Assembly (NCBI GenBank): GCA_003151615.1
Contig: PLXZ01000001.1
Coordinates: forward strand, 200,470-244,317
Direction: 5' to 3'
From: Candidatus Tayloriibacteriota bacterium
GTDB lineage: Bacteria; Patescibacteriota; Minisyncoccia; Phycocordibacterales; PALSA-1337
DNA length: 43,848 bases
In this document: positions 2,989 to 20,369 of the stretch, in pieces
Position numbering within the stretch: the first letter of the stretch is position 1
Layout: each line of letters opens with the position of its first letter
Notes under the pieces: model-generated
The model's database searches: none
What the model was told of the DNA's origin: nothing
What the model saw: only the letters and a program-made list of their open reading frames with translations
Made by a program: the position numbers and the translations under genes

Positions 2989-3025
2989 TTTTCTTTAAGG
3001 TAACAATTTGTGACCTTAAAGAAAA
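2989..3025. repeat. 37-nt palindrome upstream of the ORF6N gene
   Basis: TTTTCTTTAAGGT-A-ACAA-T-TTGT-G-ACCTTAAAGAAAA: 13-bp perfect outer arms, one A/G mismatch, 4-bp inner arms, T centre. Confidence 0.9.
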
Positions 3026-3098: not shown

Positions 3099-3650
3099 AT
3101 GAGTATTAAAGAATTTTCCAATAAAGAAATTCAGATTTCACCTGAACACATAACCCAGAAAATTTTCCTTATTCGTGGCAGGAAAGTTATGTTTGCGCAG
3201 GATCTGGCAGAAATATATGAAGTAGAAACAAGAATCCTCAATCAGGCAGTCAAAAGAAACAAGGAGCGATTTCCTGATGATTTTATGTTTAGTTTGAATC
3301 AGGAAGAAACCACGCAATGGCAGGGATATCTTTCAAGATCACAATTTGTGATCTTGAAACAAGGCAGAAATATCAAGTATTTACCGCTCGTCTTTACTGA
3401 ACACGGCGTTGCCATGCTTTCCTCTGTTTTGAAAAGCGAACGCGCGGTTGAGATGAATATTTTTATAGTTCGTGCATTCGTAAAACTTCGGGAGATGCTT
3501 GCAACAAACAAAGATTTGGCACAAAGGATGGATAAGCTAGAGCTTGAACAAAAGGATCAGGGAAATCTGCTCGCGTCGGTATATTCAATAGTGAAGCAAC
3601 TTATTGATACACCGGCCAAATCTGTAGGGAAGATTGGCTTCGATATTTGA
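3099..3650 (+). CDS. ORF6N domain-containing (KilA-N-like) DNA-binding protein
   Basis: IRGRKVMFAQDLAEIYEVETRILNQAVKRNKERFPDDFMFSLNQEE ... KYLPLVFTEHGVAMLSSVLKSERAVEMNIFIVRAFVKLREML. Confidence 0.85.
   Translation: MSIKEFSNKEIQISPEHITQKIFLIRGRKVMFAQDLAEIYEVETRILNQAVKRNKERFPDDFMFSLNQEETTQWQGYLSRSQFVILKQGRNIKYLPLVFTEHGVAMLSSVLKSERAVEMNIFIVRAFVKLREMLATNKDLAQRMDKLELEQKDQGNLLASVYSIVKQLIDTPAKSVGKIGFDI
3331..3359. repeat. 29-nt perfect palindrome inside the ORF6N coding sequence
   Basis: TTTCAAGATCACAA-T-TTGTGATCTTGAAA; encodes SRSQFVILK. Confidence 0.95.
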
Positions 3651-8361: not shown

Positions 8362-8412
8362 ATTAGGTACTGGCCATTTTTGTAGATATGCGTTATATTG
8401 GGATGTACATCT

Positions 8413-10224
8413 ATGGACCAAAAGACCAAAGATACCTTTATTAGCAATGCTCGAAGGAACATTGCGAAAATACAGGAGTTTTTGGTAGACGAACAAAAAA
8501 AGGTCCAGCAACTCATAAATACGAAAACTTCCGGCGCGAAAGTGGAAGACAAATGGACGGAAGAATACGTCAAAGCTCTCAACAGGGATCGCCTCGTCCA
8601 GCTTCAAAAAATGCACGACTCCCCGTACTTCAGCAAATGCAATTCCACGTTTGAGGGAGTAACCAAGGATTATTATTTCGGAAAATTTTCTCTGACCGAA
8701 GAATCGATTTATTCCTGGGTGGCTCCGGTTGCGTCGATTCGTTTCGATGTGCCCGGTCCGATATCGTATCCGTTGCCAAACGGAAAAATTCGCAGCGGAA
8801 AACTTCATGAAAAAGACGAATATCAGATAGTCGACGGTAAAATTCTTTTCTACTCGACCGAATCAGAGGGAAGTCCGCGACAACTTGTCCATCAGGAATA
8901 TTTCTCGACAAAGAAAAGCGGCTTCCTTCTTCCCGAAATCGTTTCGAAAATGGAAAAAGCCCAGGATACGATTATCAGGGCTCATTACAACAATCCTTTT
9001 GTGGTATCGGGTCCTGCAGGATCGGGAAAAACGACGCTGGCTCTGCATCGAATCGCGTATCTGATGCAGGCTCCGGCCAGCACCGACATTTACAAAAATA
9101 GTTCAATTGCCGTTTTCGTTCAGGATCAGCGTTCAAAGGACTATTTCTCACACCTACTTCCCGAGCTTGGCATTACGACGGTTTCAATCATGACATTCAC
9201 CGAATGGGCGTTGGCAATTCTCGATGATATGGATACGAGCGCGGTCAATTCGTTCTCTTCCAACCTTTTGCCGGACCTTTTGTACGAGCAGGAGAAAATA
9301 TTGGCGATGAGAAGCGTTCTGTCGGCCGCAGATGAAAGTAAAAAGCCTAAATTTTCAAAAAATTATTTCGCCGGCCTCGAAAAAATATACAAGCCGTTCT
9401 TTTCCGCCGAAAATGCAGCTGTGTTCGCGAAACAAAAAAAAGAAAATGTTCTCGATCGGATTGATCTCACTCTGCTTCTGGCCTTGTATCGGCTTTCACA
9501 TAAAAAACTTTCGATAACGAAACGTACGTTTGTTCCGGACGATGACGGCGCCTTGGTCGAGAAGCGAAAAAGCGAAAGTCTCGAATATATGCTCATGGTT
9601 GTGGACGAATTTCAGAATTATTTGCCCGAACAGCTCACGATTTTGAAGGATTGCATCAATCAAGAGCATAAATCGGTCATTTATGTCGGCGACATCGCCC
9701 AGCAGATCAATCCCGGCGCCATTCGTGACTGGAACGAGATCGGCGAATTCATTCCTTCCGACCGACACGTCATTTTGAACAAGGTCTACCGAAACACAAA
9801 AAAGATTTTGAACTTCATCGGCACTCTCGGATATTCGGTGAACATTCCTGATTCGATAAAAGAGGGAACAGAAGTCGTCAACAAAAAATTCGCATCCGTC
9901 AAAGAAAAAATTGCTTTCATACAGGAATTGATTGCAAAACGTTCGGAACGCGAATCGATCGGTATTCTCGGAATCGACACCGAAAGTCTGACTGAACTCC
10001 GCAATTCAATCGAAACAAACGAATTCGTGCACATCATCACAGCCCGCGAATCCCAAGGCCTCGAATTCGACACCGTCTGTCTCGTTGGTTTCGACAAAGA
10101 CACCTATTTCGACGGTTACAAACAATTCCCCGAGCAGTTTCAGGCTGAAAAACAGAAGATTGATAGGGATTTGCTATATATTGCGCTGACCCGGGCGATT
10201 AGTGGGTTGTACTTGGTAGACTAA
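8413..10224 (+). CDS. UvrD/HelD-like superfamily I DNA helicase
   Basis: Walker A GPAGSGKTTLALHRIAYLM, VVDEFQNYLPEQL, ITARESQGLEFDTVCLVGFD, LLYIALTRAISGLYLV. ATG at 8413 preferred over the track's TTG at 8398. Confidence 0.85.
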   Translation: MDQKTKDTFISNARRNIAKIQEFLVDEQKKVQQLINTKTSGAKVEDKWTEEYVKALNRDRLVQLQKMHDSPYFSKCNSTFEGVTKDYYFGKFSLTEESIYSWVAPVASIRFDVPGPISYPLPNGKIRSGKLHEKDEYQIVDGKILFYSTESEGSPRQLVHQEYFSTKKSGFLLPEIVSKMEKAQDTIIRAHYNNPFVVSGPAGSGKTTLALHRIAYLMQAPASTDIYKNSSIAVFVQDQRSKDYFSHLLPELGITTVSIMTFTEWALAILDDMDTSAVNSFSSNLLPDLLYEQEKILAMRSVLSAADESKKPKFSKNYFAGLEKIYKPFFSAENAAVFAKQKKENVLDRIDLTLLLALYRLSHKKLSITKRTFVPDDDGALVEKRKSESLEYMLMVVDEFQNYLPEQLTILKDCINQEHKSVIYVGDIAQQINPGAIRDWNEIGEFIPSDRHVILNKVYRNTKKILNFIGTLGYSVNIPDSIKEGTEVVNKKFASVKEKIAFIQELIAKRSERESIGILGIDTESLTELRNSIETNEFVHIITARESQGLEFDTVCLVGFDKDTYFDGYKQFPEQFQAEKQKIDRDLLYIALTRAISGLYLVD

Positions 10225-10241: not shown

Positions 10242-10276
10242 ATTAAAGGTGCGTGCTTGTCGCACGCACCTTTAAT
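10242..10276 (+). terminator. Strong 15-bp hairpin after helicase gene (terminator-like)
   Basis: ATTAAAGGTGCGTGC-ttgtc-GCACGCACCTTTAAT perfect stem; T-rich downstream but no long U tract. Confidence 0.65.
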
Positions 10277-10337: not shown

Positions 10338-10493
10338 TTATTTTTCTGCATCGAAATCAACATCGACAGGTTCTTTGACTATTTTGTGACCTTCGAAAGA
10401 AACAGGGCCTTTCTTAGTTTGGAAAGCAATGGTCGCGGGTTCTCTTACCGGCTTATGAGCCTCAAAATGCACATGAACTTTATTTTTTGCCAT
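10338..10493 (-). CDS. Small 51-aa protein with internal duplication (below ORF-track cutoff)
   Basis: MAKNKVHVHFEAHKPVREPATIAFQTKKGPVSFEGHKIVKEPVDVDFDAEK*; FEAHKPVREPATIAF resembles FEGHKIVKEPVDVDF. Confidence 0.65.
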   Translation of the reverse strand: MAKNKVHVHFEAHKPVREPATIAFQTKKGPVSFEGHKIVKEPVDVDFDAEK

Positions 10494-10608
10494 TTTTTTA
10501 TTTAATTATAATCGATCGACTAATTCGATTTCTAATAATAACTATATTCTAAGGCTTACATTTATTATGTCAAGTTATCAACACTTTTTGCTTGATTTTT
10601 TTACAAAA

Positions 10609-10649
10609 TTTGTATATACTGTCTGGCATGGCCAAACAGTATATACAAA
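10609..10649. promoter_or_regulatory. 41-nt dyad centred on the start codon of the HTH-DUF4065 gene
   Basis: TTTGTATATACTGT-c-TGGC-ATG-GCCA-a-ACAGTATATACAAA; left arm contains TATACT (-10, 10615-10620). Confidence 0.9.
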
Positions 10650-11329
10650 AAATTAAAGAATATCGTATAAAGGGAGGTTTATCACAAGAACAAATTGCTA
10701 ACGTTATCGGGGTATCGCGACCAACATATACCGCAATTGAGTCAGGAAAACAGGAATTAAGTGCTGAAGAAATCCAGAAATTGGCGAAATTCTATTCGAT
10801 TAGTGTCGATGAACTTCTTTCAGGAGAAATATCAGACTTTGAAAAGTACAAGCAAATGATTCTTGCATATTTACGTATGGATATCTCCAATAAAGAGGGT
10901 GGAAAGGTGCCAAAGACTAAACTCGCTAAATTATTGTATTTAGCTGATTTCGCTTGGTTTTATAATAATTTGAAAAGTATGAGTGGTATGCAATATCGTA
11001 AGTTACCATATGGCCCTGTGCCCGATGAATTCTTTCGAGCGATAGATGAGCTTGCTTCAGATGGTAAAATCAATATTGAACCAAAGACTGAAGGCGAAAA
11101 GGAAATGCTTCTTATTAGTGAACCTGAAAGCAATAAAAATGAAAAGTTAATTAAGGTTTCTTCCGAGGAAATTAATTTGATGGAGAAAATTGCTGAAAAA
11201 TGGAAAGACAAAAGAACTAACGAAATAGTTAACTTTACTCACAACCAGATGCCGTATCTTCTCTGTAAAAATGATGAGTTTATCCCGTATGAACTTATTA
11301 CCCAAGAAGATTTTGATCAAGTTTATTAA
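10628..11329 (+). CDS. Xre-family HTH + DUF4065 (Panacea, PanA-like) putative antitoxin
   Basis: HTH: IKEYRIKGGLSQEQIANVIGVSRPTYTAIESGKQELSAEEIQKLAKFYSISVDELL; DUF4065-like: KTKLAKLLYLADFAWFYNNLKSMSGMQYRKLPYGPVPDEFFRAIDEL. Confidence 0.8.
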   Translation: MAKQYIQKIKEYRIKGGLSQEQIANVIGVSRPTYTAIESGKQELSAEEIQKLAKFYSISVDELLSGEISDFEKYKQMILAYLRMDISNKEGGKVPKTKLAKLLYLADFAWFYNNLKSMSGMQYRKLPYGPVPDEFFRAIDELASDGKINIEPKTEGEKEMLLISEPESNKNEKLIKVSSEEINLMEKIAEKWKDKRTNEIVNFTHNQMPYLLCKNDEFIPYELITQEDFDQVY

Positions 11330-11334
11330 AATAT

Positions 11335-11730
11335 ATGCCAGAAAACAATTTCGTCGAGATAAGAGCTTTTGCTGGCAAACACTATATCGACTCATTTACA
11401 AAGAAACATAAATCCCATTGGGATGTAACATTAAAAGCAATAGTTGGTCAATTGGAACGCATTGAAGCTTTTTTATTGACTGACAAAGCGGAAATTATTT
11501 CAGATGTTGGTGGTGTAAAACTTATCAAGACGAAATTTAAGATTGCTGCAAGTATGGAATCTGCCAAGACTTCGGGTAATCGTTGTATTGTTGCATGGTA
11601 TTCAGACAAACGAAAAGTCTCGATTCTTCTTGTTTATAGTAAAACAGATTTGAGCGGACAGAATGAAACGGATAAATGGAAGAAAATCATCAGAGATAAT
11701 TATCCAGAATATGAGGGTCATTGTAAATGA
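11335..11730 (+). CDS. Putative RelE/HigB-like toxin partner
   Basis: 5-nt gap after the antitoxin gene; 131 aa ending GNRCIVAWYSDKRKVSILLVYSKTDLSGQNETDKWKKIIRDNYPEY, similar in layout to the RelE-fold C-terminus. Confidence 0.55.
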   Translation: MPENNFVEIRAFAGKHYIDSFTKKHKSHWDVTLKAIVGQLERIEAFLLTDKAEIISDVGGVKLIKTKFKIAASMESAKTSGNRCIVAWYSDKRKVSILLVYSKTDLSGQNETDKWKKIIRDNYPEYEGHCK

Positions 11731-20339: not shown

Positions 20340-20369
20340 AAACGCCGTTTCCGAAAGGAAACGGCGTTT
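20340..20369. terminator. Bidirectional terminator between convergent genes
   Basis: AAACGCCGTTTCC-gaaa-GGAAACGGCGTTT, 13-bp perfect stem. Confidence 0.85.

Follow-up and report, generated by a model that had tools for sequence, protein, structure and literature searches.

Does the 41-nt inverted repeat that straddles the start codon of a predicted antitoxin gene in a Patescibacteria genome act as an operator, as an RNA element or as a structure in the DNA itself, and is its symmetry maintained at all? We addressed these questions in the window, meaning the whole 43.8-kb stretch of DNA that was analysed, and in relatives of the locus.

A dyad on the predicted start site of a putative toxin-antitoxin operon

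The dyad (10609-10649, no strand assigned) reads TTTGTATATACTGTcTGGC-ATG-GCCAaACAGTATATACAAA, with 19-nt arms on either side of the ATG, and 18 of the 19 pairs match, the single mismatch being C10623/A10635; the sequence and coordinates given by an earlier, sequence-only reading proved exact. Its left arm (10609-10627, + strand) is noncoding, holds the -10 box and lies upstream of the predicted +1, and its right arm (10631-10649, + strand) comprises antitoxin codons 2-7 and the first base of codon 8, where HTH helix 1 begins (modelled at residues 4-15). With a score of 16.5 it is the top inverted repeat of the window, in which only five reach a score of at least 12; the remaining four are two terminator-like repeats and two that belong to an ORF6N gene, and five first-order Markov simulations of the window produced none scoring 12 or more. 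Folded as single-stranded DNA, the dyad gave z-scores of -7.9 (+ strand) and -9.2 (- strand), and random synonymous coding, with the protein and the upstream sequence fixed, reached its pairing with P = 0.004. A chance origin is ruled out by these simulations, folding z-scores and the synonymous-coding null, together with the covariation tests described below. We also rejected a multi-copy or mobile repeat, as the genome has a single copy of the dyad and no further strong one (in a genome pattern scan the third match differed at 3 positions, and one match was likewise obtained with the reversed pattern as control). An intrinsic terminator, predicted on the - strand at the dyad, was ruled out since relatives keep no U-tract next to the stem.

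The promoter consists of a -35 element, TTGATT (10592-10597, + strand; TTGACT in most relatives), and a -10 element, TATACT (10615-10620, + strand), at the positions previously assigned to them, with a 17-nt spacer and 7 nt between TATACT and the ATG, which places the predicted +1 at or beside the ATG. All 20 loci that carry the dyad have TTGACT-N16/17-TATACT 6-11 nt 5' of the ATG, with the -10 box degraded to TAAACA in L063, and none of the 20 has a Shine-Dalgarno-like motif. Since the promoter stands so close to the ATG and such a motif is absent, the antitoxin gene is most likely leaderless, its +1 being predicted from promoter geometry; the conserved layout of -35, -10 and ATG thus supports the leaderless promoter proposed from the sequence. 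The dyad axis lies 7-10 nt 3' of the -10 box across relatives, and therefore at the predicted +1; relative to the A of the start codon it ranges from -2.5 to +1.5 nt. Centring on the start codon, as first described, is accordingly exact in the window but does not hold as a rule, because across relatives the axis follows the predicted transcription start; the exact ATG-centred layout is one member of a series. By inspection, no mirror -35 for antisense transcription is present at the mirrored position.

The antitoxin gene (10628-11329, + strand) encodes 233 amino acids with HTH_3 and SocA_Panacea (PF13274) domains, the latter scoring 59.2 bits, above the curated cut-off of 25.7. In the AlphaFold model of the antitoxin (pLDDT 88) the HTH domain resembles 434 and P22 repressors, C proteins and HigA, and its recognition helix, GVSRPTYTAIE(A/S)GK, is nearly invariant across the dyad clade. 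The gene that follows (11335-11730, + strand) encodes a 131-aa predicted toxin of RelE/HigB fold, and in nearly all relatives a counterpart lies 3' of the antitoxin gene. Unlike assigned RelE/HigB toxins, this protein has no family match above the Pfam or NCBIfam thresholds, yet its model (pLDDT 84) shares a predicted fold with type II toxins, matching RelE and HigB2 (1wmi, E 8e-4; 8a0x, E 2e-3). On these models the two genes are predicted to form a toxin-antitoxin pair of type II, and the nearest named relatives, from Taylorbacteria, Campbellbacteria and Nomurabacteria, point to a genome of the Patescibacteria. A link between the dyad and toxin subtype was discarded, dyad loci having both toxin start types.

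Paired changes across the arms

Whole-protein searches and one peptide-pattern scan yielded 64 distinct loci, the window counted among them. Of the dyad loci, L038 is the sole one that owes its place to the pattern scan only, so arm sequence did not decide which loci entered the set. Searches in the orders and families around G856, G425 and G371 found no new relatives, and none was found in the viral collection. The dyad clade comprises 20 loci, and more distant relatives lack the dyad; it occurs in no other clade, but within this one several families have it, in the same position with respect to the -10 box. Four members (L005, L054, L056 and L086) have eroded dyads with 9-13 of 19 pairs, and L058 and L059, which lie inside the same protein tree with antitoxins 66% identical, have none; the dyad is therefore not essential. 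L058 and L059, which have AAA for the Lys before Tyr and an 18-nt promoter spacer, are natural dyad losses useful as controls.

The arms of different loci spell different but complementary sequences, as in L060 (TTTTCTATATAATTGTTCAT meeting ATGAACAATTATATAGAAAA at the axis, a perfect 40 bp), L063 (TTTGTGTAAACATGTTC-GTAT-GAACATGTTTACACAAA), L051 (TTTCCATATACTTGGTG-TCATGAC-CACCAAGTATATGGAAA) and L006 (TTCTATATACTcATTGGT-ATATG-ACCAATaAGTATATAGAA). In a MAFFT alignment of the dyad clade both sides had changed at 12 of 18 pairs while 88% of cells were paired, and 38 cells were doubly changed, against 12.1 +/- 2.5 after shuffling (0 of 500) and 4-11 with the partner slid; RNAalifold recovered the same stem with 9 covarying pairs. 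Among eight non-overlapping sister pairs, the association of left with right changes had an odds ratio of 10 (p = 4e-6), with values near or below 1 in slid controls; of the 16 double changes, 13 were Watson-Crick in both sequences. Own-arm pairing stood at 266.5 against at most 198.5 for swapped arms in 20,000 permutations, and parsimony on a tree from a single FastTree run counted 29 switches between Watson-Crick types. The symmetry ends abruptly with the stem: at O13-O15, just outside it, 4-7 of 20 loci pair; at O16, where both columns are conserved, 18 do so. The compensatory changes exceed chance, which is what a structured fold-back element calls for.

Because the right arm is coding, the changes include both amino-acid replacements (Gln/Glu at codon 7, Ile/Met at codon 6, and Lys/Asn before Tyr) and synonymous choice. 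Where Lys precedes Tyr, its codon is AAG in 9 of 9 dyad loci versus AAA in 24 of 24 others (p = 2.6e-8 with loci treated as unrelated), and synonymous-coding nulls gave P < 0.05 in 13 of the 20 loci. Rather than a conserved N-terminus without symmetry around it, the contrary case envisaged by the sequence-only reading, relatives aligned across the ATG show symmetry that persists with its letters changed, by paired changes that include synonymous ones. Since letters change on both sides and the symmetry persists, it is the complementarity itself that is maintained, and we regard strong evolutionary maintenance of the dyad as very probable. Promoter and coding changes mirror each other, amino-acid replacements included, meaning that DNA symmetry constrains the N-terminus of the protein. 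Whichever reading of its role holds, the 20 aligned dyad loci are a ready-made set of natural variants.

A proposed DNA fold-back and its rivals

Our preferred reading, held tentatively and at somewhat short of even chances, is that the dyad gates the promoter of a leaderless HTH-Panacea/RelE operon as a cruciform-capable DNA fold-back with its axis on the start site. Negative superhelical stress would extrude the dyad, extrusion would draw the -10 box and the start site into hairpin arms and so silence the promoter, and operon output would therefore sense torsion; ordinary autoregulation would proceed through two upstream palindromes recognised by the HTH domain. Since the left arm is absent from a leaderless mRNA, such a structure would work at the level of the DNA and not of the message. 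In a more specific form, which we consider possible at about one chance in three, the dyad is a natural promoter switch that chiefly conserves its self-complementarity and sets expression either by torsion or by pairing of the nascent-RNA 5' end with the non-template left arm, the fold-back being kept by coordinated noncoding, synonymous and amino-acid changes. Against a fold-back, the promoter layout is shared by 29 of 37 scored dyad-less relatives, where it stands 6-9 nt before the ATG, and a dimeric site with drifting specificity would likewise give mirrored changes. The eroded members of the clade and the missing dyads of L058 and L059 also count against it. A stem of 17-20 bp is also short for a cruciform in vivo. 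Were a structural switch to operate here, it would be a rare natural and evolutionarily tracked case of cruciform-type promoter control, tying toxin-antitoxin expression to DNA supercoiling.

It is rather unlikely, though well short of negligible, that the dyad is instead a symmetric site bound on both arms by the antitoxin, the antitoxin-toxin complex or a host protein, which would block RNA polymerase, the mirrored changes then being drift of binding specificity. Autoregulation via inverted repeats is the rule in type II systems, which counts for such a site, as does the likeness of the antitoxin HTH model to known repressors; moreover, the ORF6N palindromes of the window show mirrored variation around a fixed core, as a true operator would. 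A dimer-bound site and a fold-back would both produce mirrored changes, which by themselves do not discriminate between the two. However, the half-site letters are not conserved, the arms varying by paired changes while the recognition helix stays nearly invariant, and the half-site spacing is not fixed: in an anchored alignment the gap between the arms runs from 13 to 19 nt, pairing extends close to the axis at all lengths, and the 6-bp spread would rotate the half-sites by about half a turn. The variable gap, the pairing close to the axis and the near-invariant helix favour the fold-back over the operator, and the proposal of an autoregulatory operator read by the HTH domain is weakened accordingly. 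The genome holds no further strong copy of the dyad, and two sequence-conserved palindromes are better placed. Palindrome A (10568-10583, no strand assigned), TGTCAA-N4-TCAACA or TGT-N10-ACA, has the form TGTCAA-N4-T(C/T)GAC(A/C) in the dyad clade, and palindrome-like B (10589-10605, no strand assigned), TGC-TTGATTTTTTT-ACA, also given as TGC-TTGACTTCTTT-ACA, starts 21 bp after A and overlaps the -35. As candidate operators for the HTH domain, A and B would fit an Xre-type dimer better than the dyad does. If the dyad were the operator after all, its specificity would have changed without change in the recognition helix.

An RNA hairpin in a through-running transcript, from upstream read-through or antisense, that controls translation, processing or termination is improbable. 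In its favour, a stem that covaries while its loop changes length is the classic signature of RNA, the dyad folds very stably as RNA (-22.6 kcal/mol for the sense and -26.4 for the antisense strand), and many loci have their nearest upstream gene in the same orientation. On the other side, the operon's own predicted transcript begins at the axis, the window has a divergent small ORF upstream, neither strand has a conserved U-tract after the stem, sense-strand mismatches show no excess of G-U over C-A (13 vs 20, p = 0.3), and an Rfam search of the dyad gave sub-threshold microRNA-like matches only. The same mismatch counts, together with a first 80 nt of the predicted leaderless mRNA that is unstructured (z = +1.7), speak against the suggested RNA-level occlusion of the ATG, which is unlikely because that mRNA would be without the left arm.

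Least probable, at roughly one chance in eight, is maintenance by mutation with little or no selection, in which template switching between imperfect inverted repeats copies arm onto arm: such switching can create and maintain perfect stems (PMC8794818) and double changes cluster in one comparison (L054/L063, at O4, O7 and O8), but the window has few other long inverted repeats, most double changes lie dispersed between pairs that did not change, and the dyad keeps its place relative to the -10 box in several families of a single clade. Template switching may nevertheless contribute to stem maintenance.

Known systems and other repeats of the window

In the Panacea (PanA) toxin-antitoxin systems, which are DUF4065/SocA-like, an HTH and Panacea antitoxin adjoins a small toxin gene as it does here, and the authors propose that the HTH controls transcription (PMC8832971, PMC10440598); the sections consulted give no operator, leaderless start or covarying dyad, while the present locus has a covarying dyad. 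The cruciform-controlled promoter of Horwitz and Loeb 1988, as cited in PMC6060812, reportedly likewise has an inverted repeat at the promoter and acts at the DNA level, which for our dyad is a proposal; unlike that promoter, the present dyad is natural, covaries in evolution and includes a start codon and coding sequence. Nematomorpha mitochondria also keep palindromes and inverted repeats in coding sequence beside conserved protein, but there both arms are coding, whereas the present dyad joins a promoter arm to a coding arm (PMC6649704). The C proteins of restriction-modification systems (e.g. C.AhdI) are small Xre-type autoregulators with tandem operators near the -35 and are often leaderless, to which the present locus, with its candidate tandem operators and predicted leaderless start, is alike. 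We know of no start-site dyad with covarying letters in C-protein systems.

Several other elements of the window were recorded. Divergent from the antitoxin gene lies a 51-aa ORF (10338-10493, - strand; MAKNKVHVHFEAHKPV...), whose first 47 residues have no Pfam match; palindrome A is overlapped by a promoter-like TTGACA-N16-TAGAAT (10573-10546, - strand) that would serve this ORF. A UvrD-like helicase gene (8398-10224), resembling PADLOC RT-helicase, GajB and AbiO models, has a perfect 15-bp terminator-like hairpin (10242-10276) directly 3' of it, and a perfect hairpin at 20340-20369, AAACGCCGTTTCC-GAAA-GGAAACGGCGTTT, is probably a terminator. The ORF6N gene (3099-3650, + strand) has one palindrome within its coding sequence (3331-3359, codons for RSQFVIL) and one upstream (2989-3025), with CAATTTG as their common core. 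Most of 30 ORF6N loci (L098-L127) have a palindrome at the same coding position, with different yet complementary arms around a fixed 1-nt centre; it is probably an operator, or else a site of self-recognition, embedded in the gene.
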